A program made the position numbers and the translations under genes. The notes beneath the pieces are model-generated. The model searched no databases, had not been told where the DNA came from, and worked only from the letters and a program-made list of their open reading frames with translations. From Singulisphaera sp. GP187 (lineage in GTDB: Bacteria; Planctomycetota; UBA1135; UBA2386), in the NCBI GenBank assembly GCA_945871815.1, contig CAMBXM010000022.1, positions 1-34,826 on the forward strand: 34,826 bases of DNA, read 5' to 3'. Position 1 is the first letter of the stretch. Every line of letters starts with the position of its first letter. Positions 18,885 through 31,840 of the stretch are shown here, piece by piece.

Positions 18885-18915
18885 CTTTGGCGCCGCTCGC
18901 GGAGTGGCGCCGAAG
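18885..18915 (+). terminator. Hairpin after the DNRLRE gene, no T-run
   Basis: CTTTGGCGCC (18885-18894) pairs with GGCGCCGAAG (18906-18915) over 10 positions with one G-T wobble, with an 11-nt loop. It starts 2 nt after the stop codon and is followed only by TTCGGG. Confidence 0.55.
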
Positions 18916-19019
18916 TTCGGGACCCTGTGGCCAAGGGCTGCGCGTCGTGCGCCGCGAGCCGCGACGCCTCGCGCGTCCAGCGCCGGCGACATCGGTGGCC
19001 AACTTCGCAGTCACCCCAC

Positions 19020-19025
19020 TAGCAT
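19020..19025 (+). promoter_or_regulatory. Leaderless-type -10 element of the enolase-superfamily operon
   Basis: TAGCAT followed by 7 nt (CCGCCGG) and then the ATG at 19033, so the predicted transcript starts at or within a nucleotide or two of the start codon. No Shine-Dalgarno and no clear -35. Confidence 0.55.
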
Positions 19026-19032
19026 CCGCCGG

Positions 19033-20445
19033 ATGCAGATCCGCACGGTCACAGCGGCCTTCGCCGAGATCGCCTGCACGGCGCGAACTCCGTTCCGCTT
19101 TGGCACCACGACCGTCGAAGGTGCACCTCTCCTGCACCTTCGTGTGCGGGTCGAATCCGTCGATGGCCGCAGCGCCGTCGGCGCGGCCGCGGATCTGCTG
19201 GTGCCGAAGTGGTTCCACAAAGACCCCGCGCGGACGGCACTGCAGGACCAGGCCGCACTGCGCGGCAGCGCCGAGGACGCCGCGCGACGCTGCCTTGCGG
19301 AGACGCGCCCTCGCAGCGTTTTTGACTGCTCCTTGGGGATGCACCGAGACCTCGTCCTCGCTCACGCGCCTGCCGCCACCAACCTTCTGGAGCGCGCCTT
19401 CGGGCCTTCCTTGGTCGAACGCGCCCTGATTGACGCCACCTGCCGTCTGGCCAAGAAGAGCTTCTGGTCCGCTCTGCAGAGCGACCTCTTTGGCATCCGC
19501 CTTGACACACTGCTGCCGGGCCTCGGTGAAATCGACGCCCGCGACCTGCTTCCGGCCCGTCCACAGAACTCGATCCTGCTGCGCCACACCGTCGGCATGC
19601 TCGATCCCCTGCGCCAGGTCGATGCTGGCACCGACGACGACGAGCCGTGCTCGGTCGAGGGCTACCTGCGCCGCCACCGCCCACGATGGCTCAAGGTCAA
19701 GGTCGGCCAAGGCCTCGAGGCCGACTGCGAACGACTGCTCGCGTTGGCATCGCTGTGTCGAACACTCGACGTCGATCCGGGCATCACTCTCGACGGCAAC
19801 GAGCAATTCGCCTCGATGGAAGATGTGGTCCGCCTGCTCGAAACCGTTGCCCGCGACCGCCTCGGCGCGCAACTGCTCGGTCGACTCGCGCACATCGAGC
19901 AGCCGCTGTCCCGGGCACTTACCTTCGATGCAGCCGCCAACCGCGCCATCGACCGCGTCCGCGCGTTCGCACCGCTCGTGCTGGACGAGGCCGATGTGCT
20001 GCCGACGTCCTTCGCCGATGCACTGCAGCTCGGCTACCGCGGCTGCTCGATCAAGAACTGCAAGGGAGTGTTCCGCGGTCTGGCCAACCAAGCACTCGCG
20101 CGCGCTCACGGCGACTCGGCCTTCGTCTGCGGCGAGGATCTGACCAACCTGCCGCTGCTGTCGCTACAACAGGACCTCGCAACCATGACGACGCTCGGCC
20201 TCGCGCACGTCGAGCGCAACGGACACCACTATTTCCGCGGCCTCGACCACCTACCGCGCGAGGTCGCGACCGCGGCGCTCGCGGCGCATCCGGATCTCTA
20301 CGCCTCGCGCCCCGACGGCAGCATCGCCTTGCGAATCGATGATGGCCAACTGCAGTGCGCCTCGTTGCTCGGCATTGGCTACGGCTGCGACCAAGAGCCG
20401 TTTGGCGAACTGATGCGCACGCTGCCATGGCAACCGTTGGACTGA
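19033..20445 (+). CDS. Enolase-superfamily enzyme (mandelate racemase / muconate lactonising-like)
   Basis: 470 residues, longer than typical MR/MLE enzymes (350-400). The barrel residues are complete: KVK motif (Lys221, Lys223), metal ligands Asp254 (LDGNEQF), Glu289 (HIEQPL) and Asp318 (LDEADV), and a second-side Lys341 in SIKNCKG. Spacing fits the MLE-type arrangement with acid/base lysines on both faces, so the enzyme should abstract a proton alpha to a carboxylate (dehydration, epimerisation or cycloisomerisation). The N-terminal capping part carries an insertion (about 75-200) that I cannot assign. It is the first gene of an operon with an OYE-type oxidoreductase (26-nt gap) and an NRAMP-related transporter. 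Substrate unknown. ATG 19033 is supported by the leaderless -10. Confidence 0.8.
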   Translation: MQIRTVTAAFAEIACTARTPFRFGTTTVEGAPLLHLRVRVESVDGRSAVGAAADLLVPKWFHKDPARTALQDQAALRGSAEDAARRCLAETRPRSVFDCSLGMHRDLVLAHAPAATNLLERAFGPSLVERALIDATCRLAKKSFWSALQSDLFGIRLDTLLPGLGEIDARDLLPARPQNSILLRHTVGMLDPLRQVDAGTDDDEPCSVEGYLRRHRPRWLKVKVGQGLEADCERLLALASLCRTLDVDPGITLDGNEQFASMEDVVRLLETVARDRLGAQLLGRLAHIEQPLSRALTFDAAANRAIDRVRAFAPLVLDEADVLPTSFADALQLGYRGCSIKNCKGVFRGLANQALARAHGDSAFVCGEDLTNLPLLSLQQDLATMTTLGLAHVERNGHHYFRGLDHLPREVATAALAAHPDLYASRPDGSIALRIDDGQLQCASLLGIGYGCDQEPFGELMRTLPWQPLD

Positions 20446-20471
20446 CTGCGGGCCACGGTCATGATGACCGC

Positions 20472-21911
20472 ATGCGCTTTCCGCCTCCGGGTCACTTCCG
20501 CACCGCAGCGACGTTCCGCGCCCACTTGCGCGAACTCGGCGTCGACTTCGACTGCGACGACAGCACGGTCGCGCATGGGGCACTCGCGCAGCCGATTCGC
20601 GTGGCGGGCAAGACGCTCGACAACCGCTTCTGCGCCCACCCCATGGAGGGCTGGGACGGCACCGAAGGCGGCTCGCCGACCGCGCACACACAGCGGCGAT
20701 GGCGCCACTTCGGCCGCAGCGGTGCCGCGCTGGTCTGGGGCGGCGAGGCCTTCGCCGTGCAGCAGGACGGCCGTGCGAACAAGAATCAGCTCTGCCTGCA
20801 CCGCGACAGCGAACGCGACCTCAGCCTGCTGCTGACGGAACTTCGCGCCGGCCGCCGCGAGATCTCGGCCAGCGACGACGGCGTGCTGATCGGTTTGCAG
20901 CTCACGCATTCGGGTCGCTTCGCGCGACCTCTAGGGCCCTTTGCGCCCAAGATCACGCAGCACCATCCGCTGCTGGCGAAGAAGTACGCCTTGCCCGCCA
21001 CCACGCCGCTGCTGACCGACACGGAGCTCGAAGCGATCGGCGAACAGTTCGTGCGAGCCGCCGTCACCGCCGAACGCGCGGGCTTCGACTTCGTCGACGT
21101 GAAGTGCTGCCACGGCTATCTGCTGCACGAATTGCTCGCCAGCAAGACCCGCAACGGGACCTATGGCGGCCCGGCGCTGGCGTCGCGCATGCGACTGTTC
21201 GAACGCATCGTGGCCGGCATCCGCACAGCCTGCCCGAACTTGCATATCGGCGTGCGGTTGTCGGCAGCCGACGTCGCACCGTACGGCAAGGATGAGAGCA
21301 CCGGACGCGGCACCGCGTTGACAGACCAGGGCATCGACCTCGCCAACCACCACTTCAACTTCTTGCCCGACGCGACGGCCTCGACCCTCGATCTCGACGA
21401 GGCCACTGCGTTCCTGCAGCGGTGCACGGAGCTGTCGATCGAGCTCTGCAACGTGACGCTGGGTTCTCCGTACTGGAACCCGCACCTGCAGCGGCCGGCG
21501 GCGTATCCGCCAAGCGACGGCTACTTGCCGCCGCTCGACCCGCTGCACTGCGTCGCCACGCATTTGCGGGTAACGCGGCAACTGACGCAGTCGGTGAAGG
21601 GCATGGCCTTTGTCGGCACGGGCTACACCTATCTGCAAGAGTGGCTGCCGCACGTAGCGCAGCGTGCCGTTGCGAACGGTGAGGTCACCTTCGTCGGCAT
21701 CGGCCGCATGTTGCTCAGCTACCCCGAGCTGCCAGCCGACGTCATCGCCGGTCGAGCGCTGCAGCAAAAGCGCCTCTGCCGCACCTTTTCCGACTGCACG
21801 ACCGCACCGCGCAATGGCATGGTGTCGGGCTGCTTTCCGCTCGATCCGTACTACAGGGCGCTGCCGGAAGCAGACCACCTGAAGCAACGGAAGAGGGACC
21901 AAGGCACGTGA
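20472..21911 (+). CDS. OYE-family NADH:flavin oxidoreductase
   Basis: 479-residue FMN-dependent oxidoreductase of the old yellow enzyme family. Core motifs include FCAHPMEGWDGTEGGSP, LQLTHSGRFARP, the active-site/FMN region VKCCHGYLLHELLASKTRNG with TYGG, and the phosphate-binding end VGIGRMLLSYPELPAD. The C-terminal tail has three cysteines in LCRTFSDCTTAPRNGMVSGC, a spacing unlike the CxxC-x3-C iron-sulfur motif of 2,4-dienoyl-CoA reductases, and there is no second Rossmann domain, so electrons probably come directly from NAD(P)H. It would reduce activated C=C bonds or a similar substrate. The stop overlaps the GTG of the transporter gene. The ATG at 20472 is chosen because upstream in-frame sequence lies within the enolase-like gene. 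Confidence 0.85.
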   Translation: MRFPPPGHFRTAATFRAHLRELGVDFDCDDSTVAHGALAQPIRVAGKTLDNRFCAHPMEGWDGTEGGSPTAHTQRRWRHFGRSGAALVWGGEAFAVQQDGRANKNQLCLHRDSERDLSLLLTELRAGRREISASDDGVLIGLQLTHSGRFARPLGPFAPKITQHHPLLAKKYALPATTPLLTDTELEAIGEQFVRAAVTAERAGFDFVDVKCCHGYLLHELLASKTRNGTYGGPALASRMRLFERIVAGIRTACPNLHIGVRLSAADVAPYGKDESTGRGTALTDQGIDLANHHFNFLPDATASTLDLDEATAFLQRCTELSIELCNVTLGSPYWNPHLQRPAAYPPSDGYLPPLDPLHCVATHLRVTRQLTQSVKGMAFVGTGYTYLQEWLPHVAQRAVANGEVTFVGIGRMLLSYPELPADVIAGRALQQKRLCRTFSDCTTAPRNGMVSGCFPLDPYYRALPEADHLKQRKRDQGT

Positions 21912-23296
21912 ACGACGTGCCACACGATGCCGGTCTCGACGACCTGCAACGCGGCTTGCGCATGTCGGCGCCGCCGGATCCGAGCCACATCGCGCGCGAA
22001 TCGCGATGGCTCGACGAGCTCGATCGCCAACCCCTCCACCGCCGTCTGCGCGGCTGGCTGTCGCTGTCGGGTCCAGGCTATCTGCAGAGCGCGCTGACCC
22101 TCGGTGCCGGCACAGCGACGACCGCGCTGTTCAGCGGCGCCGTGTTCGGCTACGCGCTGCTCTGGGTCGCACCGGTCGCCATGGCGCTCGGCGTTGCGAT
22201 GCTCAGTGCCATCGCGCACCAGACCCTGAGCACAGGCATGCGACCGTTGCCGGCGATGAGCCGCTTCGCCGGCGCGCCCTTCGCCGGCGCGTGGGCAGCG
22301 AGCTCGCTGCTGGCGTCGATCGTGTGGCACGTGCCGCAGTACAACCTCGCCGCCAACTCGGTCGTCGATCTGTGCGCCGTGGCGGGGCTCGCCGGCGTGC
22401 CAGCGATCGCCGCGAGTCCGTTGCTCTTGGCGGCGGCCATCTGGCTCTCGTGGAGCTATGGTGCGTCGCCACGACTCGTGCGTCGATACGAACAGTTCTG
22501 CAAGTGGCTGATCTGGGCCACGGTCCTGTGCCTGTTGTGGGTCGTGATCCACACGCACACCGATTGGCGGGCACTGTTCGCAGGCTTCGTGCCGTCGCTG
22601 CCGGCGGACCGCGGTGAGCACTCTGCCATCGAGATGGTGACCAGCGGCCTTGCTGCCGCCGTCGGCGTCAACATGGTGTTCCTCTATCCCTACTCGCTGC
22701 TGGCGCGCGGTTGGGGTCGTAGCCATCGTGGGCTCGCCAAGTGCGACCTCGTCTGCGGCATGCTGCTGCCGTACGCCCTGGCGACCAGCTTGATGACCGT
22801 CGCCGCTGCCAACACGCTGCACGGGGAGGAGGTGGTGGCCAAGGGCGCCGCGATCCAGCAGATGGGCATGGTGCTCGGCTCCGTGCTCGGCCAAACCGCG
22901 GGCCGCGTCGTGTTTGACCTCGGCATGCTGGCGATGGCGTTCTCGACGATCTCGCTGCACATGCTGGTCTGCGGCTTCGTGGCGATGGAGTGGTTCCAGT
23001 GCCCGGTCGGCAGCCGGGCCTACCGTGCGTTCACGTTGTTGCCGGCGCCAGCGGCCTTGGCGCCCGCGGTATTCCCTTCGGTGCCGGTGTGGCTCGCAGT
23101 GCCGACGAACATCGCCTGCGGCCTCTTGCTTCCGGTGACCTACGTCGGGTTCTTCGTGTTGCAGCGCAGCCGTGCCTATCTCGGGGTCGACCGCCTGCAG
23201 GGTCTGCGGGCGTTCTGCTGGCTCGTCGTCATGGGACTCGCGATCGCAGTGCCGATCGTGTCGATCGGTTACTACGCCATCGCGCGCTGGCTCTGA
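21908..23296 (+). CDS. NRAMP-related membrane transporter lacking the metal-binding motifs
   Basis: 462-residue polytopic membrane protein, about 11 predicted helices after a hydrophilic N-terminus of about 50 residues. The fold matches NRAMP: TM1 SGPGYLQSALTLGAGTAT, then FGYALLWVAPVAMALG and AIAHQTLSTGMRPLP. The TM1 DPGN that binds Mn/Fe reads GAGT, and the TM6 MPH-type segment reads GVNMVFLYPYSLL, so the canonical ligands Asp, Asn, Met and His are missing. It therefore probably does not carry divalent transition metals in the usual way. Translation is coupled by GTGA to the OYE gene (purine-rich GGAAGAGGGA upstream). The operon context suggests import of the substrate of the two enzymes or a cofactor metal; this is inference. 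Confidence 0.8.
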   Translation: MNDVPHDAGLDDLQRGLRMSAPPDPSHIARESRWLDELDRQPLHRRLRGWLSLSGPGYLQSALTLGAGTATTALFSGAVFGYALLWVAPVAMALGVAMLSAIAHQTLSTGMRPLPAMSRFAGAPFAGAWAASSLLASIVWHVPQYNLAANSVVDLCAVAGLAGVPAIAASPLLLAAAIWLSWSYGASPRLVRRYEQFCKWLIWATVLCLLWVVIHTHTDWRALFAGFVPSLPADRGEHSAIEMVTSGLAAAVGVNMVFLYPYSLLARGWGRSHRGLAKCDLVCGMLLPYALATSLMTVAAANTLHGEEVVAKGAAIQQMGMVLGSVLGQTAGRVVFDLGMLAMAFSTISLHMLVCGFVAMEWFQCPVGSRAYRAFTLLPAPAALAPAVFPSVPVWLAVPTNIACGLLLPVTYVGFFVLQRSRAYLGVDRLQGLRAFCWLVVMGLAIAVPIVSIGYYAIARWL

Positions 23297-23309: not shown

Positions 23310-23798
23310 TCACCACGGCCGTTTGCCGGCCGTGGTGCGATGCGTCGACCCAGTGATCCACCACTCCCCTGAGCGGCGCGCCCATTTCGCCACGACCTCG
23401 ATGGCCCACACGACGACTTCGCCGCTGCCCTCCTGGTCGTAGAGCACGAGCGGAAACGTCGTCTCGGCGGCGGCCCCTGGATCCGTCATCGCGATGGCAA
23501 AGCGATCCCAGTCGATCTCGGTCCGATGGCGGAACGCGCCGTCCTGCGTGCGTCGATTCTGGAACGCGTAGAGCAGCGCGCCGCGCAGCATGCCGCGGTC
23601 GAAGTTGCCGCTGACGTCGCGATAGTCCTCGGCAAAGTGACGCAAGACCGAGAACGCCGCCGCGGCGTCGAACGCGGCCACCTCTTCGGCCAAGGCGGCA
23701 CGGATACGCTCGTCATCGCTGCGCAACGACAGCCACAGTTCGCGGCCGCCGAGCCAGACGGCGAGTGCGGCGGCCACGAGCAAGAGAGCTCGCTTCAT
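23310..23798 (-). CDS. Small membrane-anchored or exported protein of unknown function
   Basis: 162 residues. An N-terminal hydrophobic segment after two basic residues ([18 protein letters not shown]) is a signal anchor or signal peptide. The rest has alpha-then-beta character ([26 protein letters not shown], then [35 protein letters not shown]), which vaguely resembles an NTF2/SnoaL-like fold, but no family motif is certain. The ATG overlaps the fumarase stop as ATGA, so the two are translationally coupled. High-GC codon use matches the neighbours. Function not assigned. Confidence 0.7.
23311..23337. terminator. Perfect 10-bp hairpin at a convergent gene end
   Basis: CACCACGGCC (23311-23320) and GGCCGTGGTG (23328-23337), loop GTTTGCC. 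It starts 14 nt after the transporter stop and overlaps the last codons of the minus-strand small gene, so it can work as an RNA hairpin for both transcripts. There is no T-run on either side. Confidence 0.55.
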
Positions 23799-25396
23799 GC
23801 GAAGAAGTCGTGACCCTTGTCATCGACCACCAGAAACGCGGGGAAGTCCTTCACTTCGATCTTCCAGACCGACTCCATACCGAGGTCTTCGAAGTCGATC
23901 ACTTCGATCTTGGTGATGCTGTCCTGAGCCAGAATCGCCGCCGGCCCGCCGATCGAACCGAGGTAGAAGCCGCCGTGCTTCTTGCAGGCGTCGGTGACTG
24001 CCTTGCTGCGGTTGCCCTTGGCCAAGGTCACGTAGCTGCCGCCCGCCGCCATGAACTGCTCGACGTAGCCGTCCATGCGACCGGCTGTCGTCGGTCCAAA
24101 CGAACCGGACGCCATCCCCGTCGGCGTCTTCGATGGGCCAGCGTAGTAGACCAGATGGTCCTTGAAGTACTGCGGCAACGGCTGCCCCCGGTCGAGCATG
24201 TCCTTGAGCCGGGCGTGCGCGATGTCGCGCGCGACGACCATCGGGCCGGTCAGTGCAAAGCGCGTCTTGATCGGGTGCTTCGAAATCGCAGCTCGAAGCT
24301 CGGTCATGGGCCGCGACAAGTCGAGCGCCACCACGTTGCCAGCAACCTCGTTCTCGCTTGGGTCCGGCAGGAAGCGCGCGGGGTTGGTCTCCAACTGCTC
24401 CACGAACACGCCGTCCTTGGTGATCTTGCCCTTGGCTTGGCGGTCCGCAGAACACGACACCCCGATACCGATCGGGCAGCTCGCACCATGGCGCGGCAAG
24501 CGGATCACACGCACGTCGTGACAGAAGTACTTGCCACCGAACTGCGCGCCGATGCCGTTCTTGCGCGTAATGGCCAGGACCTGCTGTTCGAGTTCCAAGT
24601 CGCGAAACGCGCGGCCCCTGGCATTGCCGCTGGTCGGCAGTGTGTCGAGGTAGCGAGCGCTCGCGAGCTTGACGACCTTCATCGTGAACTCGGCCGACAT
24701 GCCGCCGATGACGATCGCGAGATGGTACGGCGGGCACGCCGCGGTGCCGAGCTTCCGCGTCTCCTTGTCGATCCACTCCAGCAAGGACGTTGGGTTGAGG
24801 CGCGCCTTGGTCTCCTGATAGAGGAACGACTTGTTGGCCGAACCGCCGCCCTTGGTCAGGAACAAGAACTGGTACTCCTCGCCACCAGTCGCATAGAGCT
24901 CGATCTGCGCCGGCAGGTTGTCGCCGGTGTTGACCTCCTTGTACATGTCGAGCGGCGCCATCTGCGAGTAGCGCAAATTGGTCTCTGTGAACGTGCGGTA
25001 CACACCGCGGCTCAGCGCCACTTCGTCATCGCCTTCCGTCCACACGTACTGCCCCTTCTTGCCGATCACGATCGCGGTACCGGTGTCCTGGCATCCAGGC
25101 AGCACCATGCCGGCGGCGACGTTGGCGTTCTTCAGCAGTTGCAGCGCAACGAAGCGATCGTTTGCCGAGGCCTCACCATCGTCCAGGATGTTGCGTAGCT
25201 GCTGCAGGTGGCCCGGTCGCAACAGGTGGCTGATGTCGCGCATTGCCGCGAACGTCAGTTGCTCCAGCGCTACGTCCGCGATCCGCAGAATCGTGCGGCC
25301 TGCCACGCTCTCGGTCCGCACGTGCTCGCTCGTGAGCAAGCGATAGGGCGTCGCATCGGGACCGAGTTCGAACAGCTGTTGAAACTGGAAGGGCAT
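23795..25396 (-). CDS. Class I (iron-sulfur) fumarate hydratase
   Basis: 533-residue oxygen-sensitive hydratase with the alpha and beta parts fused, as in E. coli FumA/FumB; it interconverts fumarate and malate in the TCA cycle. The three [4Fe-4S] ligands are visible at the expected spacing: Cys102 (GCQDTGTA), Cys221 (AACPPYH) and Cys307 (ASCPIGIG), close to C105, C224 and C318 of FumA. The beta domain has [20 protein letters not shown] and [15 protein letters not shown]. Related L-tartrate dehydratase or mesaconase activity cannot be excluded. The gene follows the Omp85-like gene after a hairpin and has its own -10-like TATACG 8 nt before the ATG. The start by family length is clear. Confidence 0.92.
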
Positions 25397-25459: not shown

Positions 25460-27190
25460 TCAACGGCCTTGCGAGGGCCGCGATGCGCCGCCGAAGGTGA
25501 AGGCCTGCCCTACCGTGACCGCGAGATTCCAGCCATCCATGTTGCCGTCAACGTCATCGAGCGGCCGCGCCAGATCGATGCGCAGAACCGGTGCGCCGAG
25601 CAAGGGGGCGGAGCCCACGCGCACACCGCCGCCGGCACCGACAAACGGCCGTCCGAGCGCTTCGCTTCTGCCCATCCAACCGACGTCGGTGAAGGCGCAC
25701 AGGCCTAGCCGGAAGACCCAGATCTCGAGGCCCGTGTCCCAGCGCTCTTCCAGGTTGGCGAGCAGTCGGTGCGTCCCGGACAACAGCCTCGCGTCGTAGC
25801 CGCGCAGGCCGTTGTCGGCGCCCAGAGTGAGCTCGGCCGTCAGATCTTGCTCCTCGTCGACCGCGTCAAAGCGCAACTGCCCAGCGAGTGCATGGTGCTT
25901 GGCCACAGCCGAGAGCCACTGCGTCCTTGCACTGACGTTGAAACCGACGGCAGCGCCATTGGCAAAGCGGATCGTGCCGTCGGTACTGAGTCCGAGGAGC
26001 GTGGCTGCCCACGGCTCGAACACGGTGCCCGCATGCAGCTGCAGTTCGGGCTGGAGCTCGGTGCCCCGACCTGCCTCGTCGCGCAGACTGCCGCCGAGGG
26101 TCACTTCCAGCTGCGTGGCGAGCGCGATGTCCTGCACGAAGCCCAACGTGTCGAAAGCGGAAGCCTCGCGAAAGGCCGAGATCCACTGACCGCGGAAGGT
26201 ACCGCCCGCGAACAACCGTACGGTGTCGCCGGGGACCCGCAGCTCGGGGGCAAGAGCGCCCGTGGCTTCCCCGTACTCCAGCTGCTCGATGCGGGCCGTA
26301 CCGCCGAACCCCGATCGGTCGTAGCGCGGCCCGTCGGCCCACAGCAGACTCGAGTCGAGCGCGAGGCGACGGTACGGAACCGAGCCCTCCTCTTCGCCGA
26401 GGCGGAAGTAGTCGGCCGCCAGTTCGTCGTGCGCCAGTGCAAGGCGCCAGCTCTGCGGGTCCTTCAGGTGCTTCCACGGCCGTTCGACTTCGAGTCCAAG
26501 ACCGTCGCCCTCGTCGGTTCGCGACAGCCGCACATTGCCCCGGATCCAGGTGTCGAATAGGTGCAGGTCCGAGTAGCTCACGGCACCGCGGAACTCGCCA
26601 TCGCTGCTGTCGCGGAAGGTGCCGGCCACACGGTCACCCTGGCCCCTTAGGTTGCTCTCGCCCGCGGCCACGTTGAAGCCACTGACCCCACCGACGTAGC
26701 TTGCGCCGCCACCCAGGATGAGCGTCAAGCGGTCGCGCGTGACGATCACGAGATCGACCTCGAGGGGCACGTTGGTCCGCACCAACTGGACCCGCACCTC
26801 AGCGAAGATGCCCAGGGCTCGAAGATTGCGCTCCAGCTCCTCCGCTTGGCTCACGTCAATCCATTGGCCCGGCTGGACGAAGACTTCGCGCAGCACGACG
26901 TCGCGGTCGGTGGTGACGTGCACCGCATTCACGAGCCTTGGTAGAACGCGACCGCTGCGCTCGGCATCGTGGAACACCTCGTCGGTCGAAACGCGGATCG
27001 CTCGCAGACGGCCGGCGACCCGATCGCTCTGGGGAAGGGGATCGCGCGACGGCGCCGCAGGCACAGCGGACTGCGGCGGCGATGCCGGCGTCGGCACCTG
27101 GGCGGGCAGCGCACAAGCGCAGGACCACGACAACCACGCCACGACGCCCCAGGCGACGACGATCTGCTGCAACGCACGCAAGCCCTGCAT
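25460..27190 (-). CDS. Omp85/BamA-like outer-membrane protein with POTRA region
   Basis: 576-residue exported protein. The signal peptide spans about 1-31 (hydrophobic VVAWGVVAWLSWSCACALPAQ), then a Pro/Ala-rich linker. Residues about 60-155 form a POTRA-like region (VNAVHVTTDRDVVLREVF, SQAEELERNLRALGIFAEV, PLEVDLVIVTRD). The rest is a beta-barrel with alternating aromatic strands and the Omp85-type segment GADNGLRGYDARLLSGTHRL near the C-terminal quarter. With one or two POTRA units it is shorter than BamA (about 800) and nearer to TamA, TpsB or accessory Omp85 proteins. Its presence indicates an outer membrane. The ATG at 27190 is preceded at 9 nt by TAAGGT, a leaderless-type -10. It is divergent from the DUF993 operon. 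Confidence 0.82.
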   Translation of the reverse strand: MQGLRALQQIVVAWGVVAWLSWSCACALPAQVPTPASPPQSAVPAAPSRDPLPQSDRVAGRLRAIRVSTDEVFHDAERSGRVLPRLVNAVHVTTDRDVVLREVFVQPGQWIDVSQAEELERNLRALGIFAEVRVQLVRTNVPLEVDLVIVTRDRLTLILGGGASYVGGVSGFNVAAGESNLRGQGDRVAGTFRDSSDGEFRGAVSYSDLHLFDTWIRGNVRLSRTDEGDGLGLEVERPWKHLKDPQSWRLALAHDELAADYFRLGEEEGSVPYRRLALDSSLLWADGPRYDRSGFGGTARIEQLEYGEATGALAPELRVPGDTVRLFAGGTFRGQWISAFREASAFDTLGFVQDIALATQLEVTLGGSLRDEAGRGTELQPELQLHAGTVFEPWAATLLGLSTDGTIRFANGAAVGFNVSARTQWLSAVAKHHALAGQLRFDAVDEEQDLTAELTLGADNGLRGYDARLLSGTHRLLANLEERWDTGLEIWVFRLGLCAFTDVGWMGRSEALGRPFVGAGGGVRVGSAPLLGAPVLRIDLARPLDDVDGNMDGWNLAVTVGQAFTFGGASRPSQGR

Positions 27191-27199
27191 TTCACCGGC

Positions 27200-27205
27200 A
27201 CCTTA
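27200..27205 (-). promoter_or_regulatory. Leaderless-type -10 element of the Omp85-like gene
   Basis: TAAGGT on the minus strand followed by 9 nt (GCCGGTGAA) and the ATG at 27190. It faces away from the DUF993 promoter across a 101-nt divergent gap. Confidence 0.5.
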
Positions 27206-27277
27206 CTCGAACTGCCACGAGACCGCTGACGAAGCCTGCGACCAGGACTGTGCCTCGCGCCCACCGGCAAGGACCCG

Positions 27278-27283
27278 TAGGCT
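27278..27283 (+). promoter_or_regulatory. Leaderless-type -10 element of the DUF993 operon
   Basis: TAGGCT followed by 8 nt (CCACGCGG) and the ATG at 27292; the same hexamer and spacing as at accA. No -35 or Shine-Dalgarno is visible. Confidence 0.55.
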
Positions 27284-27291
27284 CCACGCGG

Positions 27292-28455
27292 ATGCCAGAG
27301 CGGACCGCAGCAATCACACCCACGCGACTGTGCTTCGCCGCCGCCCATGTGGTCTTGCACGAGGGTTACCGCGACCTGGGCCACCGCCTCGACCAGCCGT
27401 CGAGCTCTGCTGCGATCCGCGCCCACCTCGACTGGGATGCGACGATGCGCTTGCGATCCTGGCTGTCGAGCCATGGCTTTGGCATCGCCGAGGCCATGGA
27501 CACCGCCCAGCGGTTCGTTCTTGGCTGGGAGTCGGCACAGGAGTTGATTGCGCGCACGGGTGCGTTGCACCTGCCGCACGGCTTCTGCGCCGGTGCTGGC
27601 ACGGACCACCTCGGAAGCGTGAACTCGCCGCAAGACCTCATCGACGGCGTCGCTCACCAGTGCGCGCAGATCGCGGAGCACGACGGCATCCCGGTGATCC
27701 TGCCGATGTCGTTCCTGGCCCGCACCAACGCCAGTGCCAACGACTACGTCGCGGTCTACCGCGGCATCCTCGAGCGCACTGCGGGCCCTTTGTTCTTGCA
27801 CTGGCTCGGCCCGATGTTCTTGCCGGAGCTCGATGGCTACTTCCCGGGCGACTCGTTGCCGCGGATTCTCGCCCTCGACCGCCAGAAGGTGCGCGGCATC
27901 AAGATCTCGATGCTCGATGCGAAGCTCGAAGTCCGCCTGCGCCGGGAACTCCTGCCGCACGACCAGATCGTGCTCACGGGCGATGACTTCCACTTCAGCC
28001 GCCTGATTCTGGGCGGCGACCCTGAACGCGAACCGCTGCCTGTGGCCGCACGCGTCGAACGCTATACCACCATCGGCGCCCACCGCGTCGCGCTCGGCGA
28101 CTTCAGCCACGCACTGCTTGGCGTGCTGGACGCAATCGCCGAACCCGCCGGACGCGCGCTGCAGGCCCTTTCGCGCGGCGACAGCGCGCGCTTTGCCGAC
28201 CTGATGGGCCCATGCGAACAGCTCTCTCGCCACGTGTTCTGCGCGCCGACGCAGCACTACAAGGCCGGGCTGGCATTCTTGAACTATCTGGCGGGGCGCC
28301 AACCGAACCCGATGCTGATCCGGCGCGAAGACCTCGCGCGCGACGCCGATCATTATCGCCGCGCCGCCGAACTCGCAGTCCGGTGTGGAGCGCTCGCCGA
28401 CACACCCGAGGTCACGGCCCGCCTGCAGAACTTCTTGGCGGAGCCCCGCGCATGA
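27292..28455 (+). CDS. DUF993 protein, DapA-like TIM-barrel aldolase candidate
   Basis: 387 residues. Family blocks of DUF993 are clear: RLCFAAAHVV, LDWDATMRLRSWLSSHGFGI then AEAMDTAQR, CGAGTD-type segment CAGAGTDHLG, VILPMSFLARTNASANDY, LHWLGPMF, VRGIKISMLDAKLEVRLR, LTGDDFHF, ALGDFSHALLGVLDAI and SRHVFCAPTQHYKAGLAFL. The family is thought to be related to dihydrodipicolinate synthase / N-acetylneuraminate lyase barrels; Lys204 in GIKIS stands where the Schiff-base lysine of class I aldolases lies, so a retro-aldol reaction on a 2-keto acid is a reasonable guess, not shown. It heads a tightly coupled operon (ATGA overlap) with a 2-hydroxyacid dehydrogenase and a glycerate kinase. ATG 27292 is supported by TAGGCT at leaderless spacing. 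Confidence 0.8.
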   Translation: MPERTAAITPTRLCFAAAHVVLHEGYRDLGHRLDQPSSSAAIRAHLDWDATMRLRSWLSSHGFGIAEAMDTAQRFVLGWESAQELIARTGALHLPHGFCAGAGTDHLGSVNSPQDLIDGVAHQCAQIAEHDGIPVILPMSFLARTNASANDYVAVYRGILERTAGPLFLHWLGPMFLPELDGYFPGDSLPRILALDRQKVRGIKISMLDAKLEVRLRRELLPHDQIVLTGDDFHFSRLILGGDPEREPLPVAARVERYTTIGAHRVALGDFSHALLGVLDAIAEPAGRALQALSRGDSARFADLMGPCEQLSRHVFCAPTQHYKAGLAFLNYLAGRQPNPMLIRREDLARDADHYRRAAELAVRCGALADTPEVTARLQNFLAEPRA

Positions 28456-29426
28456 AGCCTCGTGTGTTCGTCACTCGCAAGGTCTACCCACAGGCGGTCG
28501 CGATTCTGCAAGAGGACTTCATCGTCGACTACCGCGACACCTACGAAGTCGCGGACCCTGACACCTTGAAGCGCAAGTTGCTGCTCGCAGACGGCATCGT
28601 CTGCCAACTGACCGACAGCATCACGGCAGAGCTCTTGGCCTTGGCCCCAAAGCTCAAGGTCGTGAGCCAAGTGGCGGTCGGCTACGACAACATCGACGTC
28701 GATGCAGCCACGGCCCGCGGCATCGTCGTCACCAACACTCCCGGCGTGCTGACCGAGTCCACCGCCGACCTGACGCTCGCGCTCATCCTGTCGGTGGCGC
28801 GCCGCGTGCCCGAAGCGGAACGGTATCTCCGCTGTGGTTCGTGGAAGCGATGGGACATCGACTTGCTCGCCGGCATCGACCTGAACGGCAAGACCCTCGG
28901 CATCGTCGGCATGGGCCGCATCGGCCAGGCGGTGGCGCGCCGCGCCCAGGGCTTCTCGATGCGCATTCTCTACAGCGCGCCAACACCGTTGCCCCCGGCG
29001 CTCGGAGACGAACTGCGGGCGCAGCACGTGCCGCTGCGCATGCTGCTCCAACAGAGTGACTTCGTGACCCTGCACGTGCCATATCGCGAGAGCACGCACC
29101 ATCTGATCGGCGTCGACGAATTGGCGGTGATGAAGCGCGGCGCGTTCTTGATCAACACGTCACGCGGCTCGATCGTGCACGAGGCGGCCTTGGTCGCAGC
29201 CCTCGAAGAGAAAATGCTCTCCGGTGCCGGCCTCGATGTGTTCGAGCACGAACCCAAGGTCCACCAGGGCCTACTCGCGCTCGACAACGTCGTACTGCTG
29301 CCGCACATCGGCTCGGCCACCATCGCAACGCGCACGCGGATGTGCACACTCGCCGCCGAGAACTGCGCCGCGGTGCTCAAGGGAGAGCGCCCGAAGAACC
29401 CAGTCAACCCGGGCGTGTTACGGTGA
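28452..29426 (+). CDS. D-2-hydroxyacid dehydrogenase, glyoxylate/hydroxypyruvate reductase type
   Basis: 324-residue NAD(P)-dependent dehydrogenase. The coenzyme motif is LGIVGMGRIGQAVARRAQGF. Catalytic residues are in their usual places: Arg in INTSRGSIVHEAAL (about 238), Glu in GLDVFEHEP and His in LLPHIGSATIATR (about 285). N-terminal blocks QVAVGYDNIDVDAATARGI and NTPGVLTESTADLTLALIL match glyoxylate/hydroxypyruvate reductase (GyaR/GhrB-like) better than phosphoglycerate dehydrogenase, and no ACT domain follows. In this operon, between an aldolase candidate and a glycerate 2-kinase, reduction of hydroxypyruvate to D-glycerate is the best inference; glyoxylate to glycolate is an alternative. 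It overlaps both neighbours by 4 nt; GGAG lies about 11 nt before the ATG. Confidence 0.88.
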   Translation: MKPRVFVTRKVYPQAVAILQEDFIVDYRDTYEVADPDTLKRKLLLADGIVCQLTDSITAELLALAPKLKVVSQVAVGYDNIDVDAATARGIVVTNTPGVLTESTADLTLALILSVARRVPEAERYLRCGSWKRWDIDLLAGIDLNGKTLGIVGMGRIGQAVARRAQGFSMRILYSAPTPLPPALGDELRAQHVPLRMLLQQSDFVTLHVPYRESTHHLIGVDELAVMKRGAFLINTSRGSIVHEAALVAALEEKMLSGAGLDVFEHEPKVHQGLLALDNVVLLPHIGSATIATRTRMCTLAAENCAAVLKGERPKNPVNPGVLR

Positions 29427-30727
29427 AAGACCGCCTGCGCGCGAACTTCGCCGCCGTACTGCGCGAACTCGACCCGACGCCGGCGGTCCGAACGGCACTG
29501 CAGTCGCGCCACGCCGAGCTGGTCACCGTCCGCGATGTGTTGGTGCTGGCTCTCGGCAAGGCTGCACGGCCGATGGCAACAGCGGCCGCAGCCGAGCTGC
29601 GGGCGATCGCGCCAAAGGCCACAGTCCGCGGCCTCGTCGTGGTGCCGGAGCCGGATGACCGCGCCCTACCGCCATTCGAAGTCCTTGCTGGTGGGCACCC
29701 ATTGCCGACCGCCGGCAGCTTCGCAGCCGCGCGCCGCGCACTCCAACTCTGCCATGAAGCGTCGTCGCAGACGTTCGTGCTGTTCCTGATCTCTGGCGGC
29801 GCGTCGTCGCTGTGCGAGTTGCCGCTCGACGATTCGATTTCGCTCGCATCGTGGCGCGAGTTCTACCGCGCGCTGGTCGGCTCGGGCGCGGGCATCGAGG
29901 CGATCAACACCGTGCGCAAGTTCGTGTCGGCGACCAAGGGCGGCAAGCTCGCAGCGGCGGCGCACCGGGCCCACAGCCAGTGGACACTCGCGATTGGCGA
30001 CGTACCAGGCGACGACCTTTCCGCGCTGGGCTCGGGTCCGTCTCTGGGCTGCGATACCACGCTCGCCGAGTTCAGAGAGGTCCTGCTTCGCCACGATCTG
30101 CTGCAGACGGTGCCCCTGCCCCTTCGCGCGCGTGCGGCGATCGCAGACCTGCCGCCCCTGTTGCAGCGAGATGCACCGTGCATGGCGCATAGCCGCGCAT
30201 TTTCGCTACTCGACAATGACGTCGCCGTGGCCGCGGCACAACTGCAGGCTCTCGGCAACGGCTTTCGCACCGTGGTCGTGCGCGACGCCGACGAACTGCA
30301 GAGCCACGAGGCGGCGGCACATCTGCTCGCCGTGCTGCGCGACGAGGTCGCGCATGCAGCCGGCCCGGTCGCAGTGATCGCCGGCGGTGAGGTGCGTGTC
30401 GCCCTGCCGGCGCAGGTCGGCACTGGCGGCCGCAATCAGCATTTTGCGCTGCAGTGCGCCATCGCGATCGCCGAGGAGCCGATCACGGTGCTCAGCTGCG
30501 GCACCGACGGCATCGACGGCAACTCCACCGCCGCGGGGGCTCTGGTCGACGGCACGACGATCGCGCGCGCGCGAGCACGTGGCCTCGACGTCGACGCGGC
30601 GCTGCGCACCTTCGACGCCTTCCCGCTGCTCCATGCACTCGGCGATACGGTGATCACCGGGCCAACGGGCACCAACGTCCGCGATGTCCGCATCCTGGTT
30701 CACAGCGGCGCAGCCGCGAAGGCCTAG
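29423..30727 (+). CDS. Glycerate 2-kinase (DUF4147/MOFRL family)
   Basis: 434 residues, the usual length for class II glycerate kinases (GckA/TtuD type), which phosphorylate D-glycerate to 2-phosphoglycerate for entry into lower glycolysis. The N-terminal DUF4147 domain has VLALGKAARPMA, VLAGGHPLPTAGS, LISGGASSLCELP and INTVRKFVSATKGGKLA. The MOFRL domain has VIAGGEVRVALP, GTGGRNQHFALQCAI and SCGTDGIDGNSTAAGALVDG. The GTG start overlaps the dehydrogenase stop as GTGA and has no Shine-Dalgarno, so it depends on coupling. Last gene of the operon; a long hairpin follows 60 nt downstream. Confidence in the activity is high. Confidence 0.92.
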   Translation: MKDRLRANFAAVLRELDPTPAVRTALQSRHAELVTVRDVLVLALGKAARPMATAAAAELRAIAPKATVRGLVVVPEPDDRALPPFEVLAGGHPLPTAGSFAAARRALQLCHEASSQTFVLFLISGGASSLCELPLDDSISLASWREFYRALVGSGAGIEAINTVRKFVSATKGGKLAAAAHRAHSQWTLAIGDVPGDDLSALGSGPSLGCDTTLAEFREVLLRHDLLQTVPLPLRARAAIADLPPLLQRDAPCMAHSRAFSLLDNDVAVAAAQLQALGNGFRTVVVRDADELQSHEAAAHLLAVLRDEVAHAAGPVAVIAGGEVRVALPAQVGTGGRNQHFALQCAIAIAEEPITVLSCGTDGIDGNSTAAGALVDGTTIARARARGLDVDAALRTFDAFPLLHALGDTVITGPTGTNVRDVRILVHSGAAAKA

Positions 30728-30786
30728 CCGCCTGTGGAACAACGGCGCCGTCGCCGCGGGCTCGGGAGCTGGGTTCCGATCAAGCA

Positions 30787-30828
30787 GCGCGAACGGCGTC
30801 GAATCTGCAGTTTCGACGCAGTTCGTGC
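30787..30828 (+). terminator. Long imperfect hairpin after the glycerate kinase gene
   Basis: Core GCGTCGAA (30796-30803) and TTCGACGC (30812-30819), 8-nt loop TCTGCAGT. Across one G/A mismatch it continues with CGAAC and GTTCG and three further pairs including one G-T, giving 16 pairs over 30787-30828. No T-run follows. It lies in the 189-nt gap before the DUF6807 gene and is probably the operon's 3' structure. Confidence 0.5.
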
Positions 30829-30903
30829 GCCGCAGCGATCGGACCAGCTCCCGCGCCAGCAGGCAGGATGCGTTCTGCAACAGACGGGTGGGGCAACCAC
30901 TCG

Positions 30904-30909
30904 TAGCAT
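30904..30909 (+). promoter_or_regulatory. Leaderless-type -10 element of the DUF6807 gene
   Basis: TAGCAT followed by 7 nt (GACGAAC) and the ATG at 30917. The hexamer overlaps another in-frame ATG at 30908; the spacing argues that 30917 is the true start. Confidence 0.5.
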
Positions 30910-30916
30910 GACGAAC

Positions 30917-31840
30917 ATGCCCCGAAGCCAAAACCTCCTTGGCCGCCTGCTCGCCCTGGCCTGGTTGCTTGCATCGTCCTCGTGCATGCTGCCGATGACC
31001 GCTCAGGAGGTCGACTTCGGCGCCTACTACGTGAACGGCGAACTCGCCCTGAGCTACCAGCACGACGCCTTCGATCCGCAACGAGCGCGCGCGACCTGCA
31101 AGGTCTATCACCACGTCCACGCGCCAGACGGACGCCTGTTGACGAAGGGGCTGGGTGGCCAGTTCGAACATCACCGCGGACTGTTCTTCGGCTTCCATCA
31201 AACGCGCGCCGGCGCGCAGCTGCTCGACTTCTGGCACTGTCGCAACGGCGAGAGTCAACGCCATCGAGCCTTCGTCGACGCCAGCGAACATGGCCTCGAC
31301 GCCTCGTGGATCGTCGCCGCCATCGACTGGCTCGACCGTGAAGAGCGCACCGTCGTGCACGAGCATCGCGCCGTTCGCGTGCGCGCCTTCGACGCGGCGA
31401 CGTGGTGCATCGATGTCCACAGCGAACTCAGCGCAACTGCAACCGTGGAACTGGGCGGCGACCCGCAGCACAGCGGTCACCAGTTTCGCGCCCTCGACCG
31501 CTTCGCGCCGAAGGACCAACCCAAGGTCACCTACGTGCGACCAGAGACGGCAATGGCGCAGCCGAACGACATCTGGACCGGATGCGACTGGATCGCGGCG
31601 GTGCTGCCGTTTGCCGACGATGAAGGCGGGCCAGTGACCGTCATTCGCGTGGAAGGCCGCAACAACCCAACCGACGTGTCATGGTCGACACGCGACTACG
31701 GGCGCTTTGGTGCAACGTTCGCCCACACGCTGCAACCGGGTTCCCCGCTGATCGTGCGCTACCACTACATCGTCGCTCTCGGCAGCCTACTCCGCGCGCA
31801 GTGCAGTGCGCTCGCGGCCCGCGGCAAGGCTTCGAACTAA
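30917..31840 (+). CDS. Exported DUF6807 ('PmoA-like') protein
   Basis: 307-residue protein with a signal peptide (LLGRLLALAWLLASSSC, cleavage probably after MTAQ at about 29). The mature part matches DUF6807: DFGAYYVNGELALSYQHD, KVYHHVHAPDGRLLTKG, FEHHRGLFFGF (paired His), HQFRALDRFAPKD, WTGCDWIAAVLPF and FAHTLQPGSPLIVRYHYIVA. These proteins are often labelled 'methane oxygenase PmoA', but that label is misleading: there is no integral-membrane monooxygenase here. They are frequent in Planctomycetota and Verrucomicrobiota near carbohydrate genes; biochemical role unproven. A Cys at about 23 lacks a proper lipobox. The alternative start at 30908 adds three residues. Confidence 0.78.
   Translation: MPRSQNLLGRLLALAWLLASSSCMLPMTAQEVDFGAYYVNGELALSYQHDAFDPQRARATCKVYHHVHAPDGRLLTKGLGGQFEHHRGLFFGFHQTRAGAQLLDFWHCRNGESQRHRAFVDASEHGLDASWIVAAIDWLDREERTVVHEHRAVRVRAFDAATWCIDVHSELSATATVELGGDPQHSGHQFRALDRFAPKDQPKVTYVRPETAMAQPNDIWTGCDWIAAVLPFADDEGGPVTVIRVEGRNNPTDVSWSTRDYGRFGATFAHTLQPGSPLIVRYHYIVALGSLLRAQCSALAARGKASN

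Follow-up and report, generated by a model that had tools for sequence, protein, structure and literature searches.

DUF993, a candidate Schiff-base lyase, and its single joining to an older dehydrogenase–glycerate kinase pair in a planctomycete lineage

What does a DUF993 protein do beside a dehydrogenase and a glycerate kinase, and how far does that company reveal its pathway? The question is raised by a 34,826-nucleotide contig of Singulisphaera sp. GP187 (assembly GCA_945871815.1, contig CAMBXM010000022.1), the whole of which was analysed and is called the window here. At 27292–30727 a DUF993 gene is followed by genes for a D-2-hydroxyacid dehydrogenase and a class II glycerate kinase. A sequence-only reading of this stretch had taken the three genes for a possible self-sufficient catabolic module, in which DUF993 would be an aldolase cutting a sugar-derived 2-keto acid to supply the dehydrogenase. 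The explanation we favour, with evenly divided confidence, is that DUF993 acts as a Schiff-base lyase in a catabolic route not described before, one that in some lineages feeds into glycerate.

The three-gene stretch

All three genes lie on the plus strand. The DUF993 gene (PF06187; 27292–28455) starts with ATG and encodes 387 amino acids (Pfam E=2.6e-86). The dehydrogenase (28452–29426; 324 amino acids) contains the domains 2-Hacid_dh and 2-Hacid_dh_C, the latter with E=5.7e-58, and the kinase (29423–30727) starts with GTG and contains DUF4147 and MOFRL; these Pfam domains agree with the family calls made earlier for both enzymes. The reported overlaps can be read directly in the sequence, as ATGA at 28452–28455 between DUF993 and the dehydrogenase and as GTGA at 29423–29426 between the dehydrogenase and the kinase. 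About 100 bp separate the DUF993 gene start from the divergent minus-strand gene at 25460–27190. A single promoter had also been proposed and was not confirmed: a scan of 27100–31000 for the sigma-70 consensus gave no match, and another promoter type remains possible.

The best solved match of the dehydrogenase is the archaeal glyoxylate/hydroxypyruvate reductase GyaR (2dbq; E=1.3e-87, over both domains), and an Arg-Glu-His triad is present in the protein, which reads SRGS, FEHEP and PHIGSA. Its best NCBIfam match is also GyaR-type, yet falls under the equivalog cut-off (369 versus 455 bits) and does not fix the substrate. The kinase is the sole MOFRL gene found in this genome. Its solved relatives are the class II glycerate 2-kinases 2b8n and 1x3l (E ~1e-52 to 1e-55), and it too scores under the NCBIfam equivalog cut-offs.

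Fold and active site of DUF993

An AlphaFold2 model of DUF993, made with 33 homologues, reached a predicted local distance difference test score (pLDDT) of 93 and a predicted TM-score (pTM) of 0.92. In a Foldseek comparison with the PDB the model matched 4dnh first (E=2.9e-27), followed by NanA and DapA proteins (E ~2e-8 to 2e-7). As modelled, the protein folds like the class I aldolases of the N-acetylneuraminate lyase (NAL)/DapA superfamily, which bears out the DapA/NanA-like barrel of the earlier reading. The barrel strands fall at residues 14–17, 64–67, 98–102, 133–136, 167–172, 200–206, 226–229 and 273–276. K204 lies in the sixth of these (200–206), where NanA and DapA hold the Schiff-base lysine. 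This placement is based on strand order and on a profile alignment: hhalign of DUF993 against one DapA sequence fell short of significance, and a small profile of dihydrodipicolinate synthase (DHDPS) was used instead, in which K204 aligned with the DapA-type Schiff-base lysine (E=2.8e-5). K204 is invariant in 33/33 homologues, and the role of Schiff-base position first assigned to it has held up.

The remainder of the active site departs from the superfamily. In DUF993 an invariant histidine (H170) stands where strand 5 carries the catalytic tyrosine, and AEAMDTAQR takes the place of the carboxylate-binding GxxGE motif. Because both have been lost, DUF993 need not bind a 2-keto acid, and the proposal of such a substrate is weakened. 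For lack of GxxGE, identity as a pyruvate aldolase of that motif type was rejected. Further invariant acidic or histidine residues are H19, E67, D70, D105, D231 and D232. In Pfam only PF06187 matched the protein, with no match from the PF00701 model. DUF993 looks like a lysine-dependent enzyme that cuts carbon bonds, presumably by aldolase chemistry, and may act like a member of the NAL/DHDPS superfamily, though it is not a PF00701 protein.

DUF993 neighbourhood in the phylum

DUF993 is present in 62 of the 154 genomes of the class. At 67 non-identical Planctomycetota and Acidobacteriota loci, genes within 8 kb of DUF993 were counted, the counts being lower bounds since several loci end at contig ends. 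An old-yellow-enzyme relative (OYE) was found at 50 loci, an Nramp-like transporter at 49 and an enolase-superfamily protein (ENO) at 25, compared with five loci for a 2-hydroxyacid dehydrogenase and two for a glycerate kinase. The ENO-OYE-Nramp(-DUF993) operon is conserved across the class, and the spacing of OYE and DUF993 in a metagenome-assembled genome (MAG) of the same genus, G001, is similar to that in the window. Among 61 relatives, 19 have both DUF993 and the OYE orthologue, four have only the one, four only the other and 34 neither (p=1.8e-8; this and the kinase p values below are uncorrected for genome relatedness). ENO, OYE and the Nramp-like transporter are the ancestral neighbours of DUF993 in the phylum. 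They lie outside the trio and had no place in the earlier reading.

A very divergent DUF993 branch (82–98 bits) occurs at loci L168 and L169, in two genomes of the same order (G089 and G090). No OYE, Nramp, kinase or dehydrogenase gene lies near these genes, and the branch possibly has a different function. No DUF993 relative was present in the viral contigs searched.

History of the dehydrogenase–kinase pair

The surroundings of the MOFRL kinase gene were compared in 20 genomes of the family. The dehydrogenase and kinase genes are adjacent in 14 of them, ten of these without DUF993, and a divergent fumarase gene lies close to the kinase region in seven. Within the family the kinase occurs in 32 of 34 genomes irrespective of DUF993 (Fisher p=1.0), and its pairing with the dehydrogenase has a housekeeping-like character there. 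Since the pair exists without DUF993, horizontal transfer of the operon as a whole module was rejected.

Those DUF993 proteins whose genes are linked to the dehydrogenase fall into a single clade of six on the DUF993 tree (SH-aLRT 97), inside the diversity of the phylum. Four genera of the family (g1, g10, g17 and g18) have DUF993 joined to the pair, one of them with an insertion. The junction between DUF993 and the dehydrogenase is an overlap in the window and in locus L122, a 4-bp gap in L120 and about 47 bp in L119, while in L118 the two genes are 1.6 kb apart, with an opposite-strand gene inserted. That inserted gene (L118, 701–2500) encodes a serine-hydrolase-like protein, beta-lactamase-like by reading. 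A pair that occurs without DUF993, a single clade and varied junctions together mark the trio as a meeting of two older gene sets that is particular to this lineage. The dehydrogenase–kinase pair is older and independent, and DUF993 joined it once in this lineage.

DUF993 operons in other phyla

DUF993 is spread over the Planctomycetota, Acidobacteriota, Actinomycetota, Bacillota and Pseudomonadota. Neighbourhoods in the other phyla were drawn from annotated plasmid records and genomes. The partners there are a Gfo/Idh/MocA dehydrogenase, whose nearest structure is 3oqb (no assigned function) followed by sugar and inositol dehydrogenases, and an IolI-like isomerase, whose nearest structures are SMc04130 (3ju2), 3qc0 and 7vpf, with IolI far behind. 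ENO precedes DUF993 in Bradyrhizobium, Tardiphaga and Chelatococcus; with Bradyrhizobium and Chelatococcus included, the link between ENO and DUF993 crosses phyla. Taken together, the ENO, Gfo and isomerase partners hint that DUF993 may act on the ketone of a sugar or cyclitol.

Clusters in the Pseudomonadota also contain genes for a CoA-transferase, enoyl-CoA hydratase, acyl-CoA dehydrogenase, SDR, aldehyde dehydrogenase and sugar ABC transporters. From the CoA-linked genes, the second fragment may be handled as a CoA ester. Five of these clusters (L180, L181, L183, L175 and L177) hold a Dabb protein and GMC oxidoreductases as well; their content suggests a catabolic island for a sugar derivative, not described before and often on plasmids.

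A glycerate kinase gene adjoins DUF993 or lies within about 2.5 kb of it in Glaciihabitans, a Nocardioidaceae MAG, Octadecabacter, Paracoccus, Peteryoungia and Roseibium. It is directly upstream of DUF993 in Octadecabacter; the order is Gfo-DUF993-isomerase-kinase in Paracoccus and Glaciihabitans, and DUF993-LacI-kinase in Peteryoungia and Roseibium. The distance is greater in Erwinia, Janthinobacterium and Rhizobium anhuiense. These kinases belong to two unrelated families, GlxK and MOFRL, and in two actinomycetotal loci (L064 and L174) a GlxK-type gene directly follows the isomerase gene. Kinase linkage changed at least four times on the DUF993 tree outside the phylum and six times overall. 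In Ornithinibacillus a 2-hydroxyacid dehydrogenase gene comes after the isomerase gene. Because glycerate kinases of two families recur in other phyla, glycerate stays a plausible end product. The predicted linkage of DUF993 to glycerate genes is borne out for the kinase beyond the phylum, whereas within the phylum most relatives lack it and the nearest clade has it.

Proposed pathway and alternatives

We propose that DUF993 would be a lysine-dependent class I carbon–carbon lyase of the NAL/DHDPS superfamily with a re-made active site, acting in the breakdown of a polyhydroxylated, sugar-like or cyclitol-like compound. One cleavage product, either directly or after an easy conversion, would be a three-carbon compound with glycerate as its end point. 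In the lineage of the window, a single rearrangement would have set DUF993 ahead of the pre-existing pair, and the product, hydroxypyruvate or tartronate semialdehyde, would be reduced and then phosphorylated to 2-phosphoglycerate. We hold more tentatively, at somewhat under an even chance, a wider proposal: that DUF993 holds the central place in an undescribed pathway spread over all five phyla, that kinases recruited separately trap its three-carbon product as glycerate, and that the Planctomycetota transporter is an Nramp-fold protein converted from metal to organic cargo.

Several observations weigh against a glycerate route. Kinase presence is unrelated to DUF993 over the order as a whole (Fisher p=0.6), and neither glycerate kinase family occurs in the eight DUF993-bearing genomes that belong to the order but not to this family. 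The joining happened once in the phylum and is broken in L118, so it may be chance. With the ten relatives that have the pair without DUF993, these results leave the idea of the three genes as a conserved catabolic unit unsupported. In 56 other genomes MOFRL lay within 10 kb of DUF993 at just 2 of 61 loci, while a DHDPS control gave about 1 in 150 places among the matches listed. That test is too weak alone, and the argument is carried by the plasmid neighbourhoods, a sample that is not random, and by the tree. Nor has a substrate been assigned to any of the pathway's enzymes.

The most serious competitor, to which we give a substantial minority chance, is that the real pathway is ENO-OYE-Nramp-DUF993, that a neutral rearrangement produced the junction with the dehydrogenase and kinase, setting DUF993 between this pair and the fumarase side, and that the product here has nothing to do with glycerate. 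The conservation of the dehydrogenase, kinase and fumarase as neighbours without DUF993, the near-universal kinase of the family, and a linkage of one origin whose junctions range from an overlap to a 1.6-kb insertion would all be expected of it. It accounts less well for a translational overlap kept or re-formed in both the window and L122, and for the independent recruitment of kinases in other phyla. The trio alone as a complete pathway, with DUF993 cutting a 2-keto sugar acid to an aldehyde and hydroxypyruvate or tartronate semialdehyde, fits the operon structure, the GyaR-like dehydrogenase, the glycerate kinase and Lys204. We regard it as quite improbable, as it has no part for ENO, OYE and Nramp, which are conserved partners, lacks any enzyme to handle the aldehyde, calls for a GxxGE motif that is absent and joins DUF993 to a pair that exists without it.

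A different doubt concerns the chemistry. The lysine could serve another Schiff-base reaction, such as dehydration, decarboxylation, ring opening or isomerisation, rather than aldol cleavage. The NAL/DHDPS superfamily includes dehydratases besides aldolases, and the exchange of tyrosine for His170, the replacement of GxxGE and the many invariant acidic and histidine residues are all compatible with such a change. We consider this unlikely, since the recurrent glycerate kinase suggests release of a three-carbon fragment, and retain the lyase reading.

Other genes of the window

The three other members of the ancestral DUF993 operon are on the plus strand of the window. The first, ENO (18904–20445; probable start near 19033), has an MLE-like active site: K233/K235 (KxK), D266, E301, E331 and K353 are invariant in 25 homologues, the three metal ligands and the strand-6 lysine are present, and the fold matches are MLE, OSBS and MR. 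Next comes the divergent OYE (20355–21911; PF00724 partial match; probable start near 20472). The third gene (21908–23296) encodes the Nramp-fold transporter, in which a GGGT-type motif and YPY replace the metal motifs DPGN and MPH in 40/40 homologues. A standard metal transporter role was rejected on account of these replacements, and the protein, judged by its motifs, is probably a non-metal Nramp-fold transporter encoded in a catabolic operon.

Two minus-strand genes separate this ENO-OYE-Nramp block (18904–23296) from DUF993. A class I fumarate hydratase (23795–25396) is the conserved divergent neighbour of the dehydrogenase–kinase pair in relatives without DUF993. Between it and DUF993 is an outer-membrane gene (25460–27190; POTRA/BamA-like by reading, no Pfam match), which among the loci compared has a homologue in the same genus only. 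A DUF6807 (PmoA-like) gene at 30734–31840 comes after the kinase gene, and in the same-genus locus L207 the DUF6807 gene directly adjoins the kinase gene.

Significance and comparison with known systems

The survey leads from a local operon to two conserved gene sets, ENO-OYE-Nramp-DUF993 and Gfo-DUF993-isomerase, together with repeated recruitment of kinases. DUF993 emerges as a widespread aldolase-like family that has a solved structure, keeps conserved partners in its pathway and has captured glycerate kinases repeatedly; for assays, the combination limits the choice to ketones of sugars or cyclitols and to three-carbon products. If the lyase reading is true, a histidine for the tyrosine and the loss of GxxGE would make a new active site for a class I aldolase. 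The survey also flags an Nramp-like lineage whose proteins probably carry no metals.

The literature searched contains no function for DUF993 (PF06187), 4dnh, SMc04130 or the Gfo-DUF993-isomerase operons, and papers beyond it are possible; SMc04132 appears there in a proteomics table only (PMC12542648). The structure 4dnh, deposited as an uncharacterized protein, is SMc04132 of Sinorhizobium meliloti and belongs to the same DUF993 family (full-length alignment, profile E=6.3e-156). Its neighbours by number are the oxidoreductase SMc04133 and the isomerase SMc04130, where the window has the dehydrogenase and kinase instead. With NanA and DapA (PF00701), DUF993 shares the (beta/alpha)8 barrel, the strand-6 lysine as K204 and a TGDD/GLDD motif on strand 7; it differs in some 80 extra residues and C-terminal helices, in His170 for tyrosine and in having no GxxGE. 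The Gfo/Idh/MocA-DUF993-isomerase operons of Streptomyces and Pseudomonadota likewise place DUF993 in a catabolic operon with transporters, but differ from the window in their other redox and isomerase partners, their LacI or TetR regulators and their CoA-linked genes.

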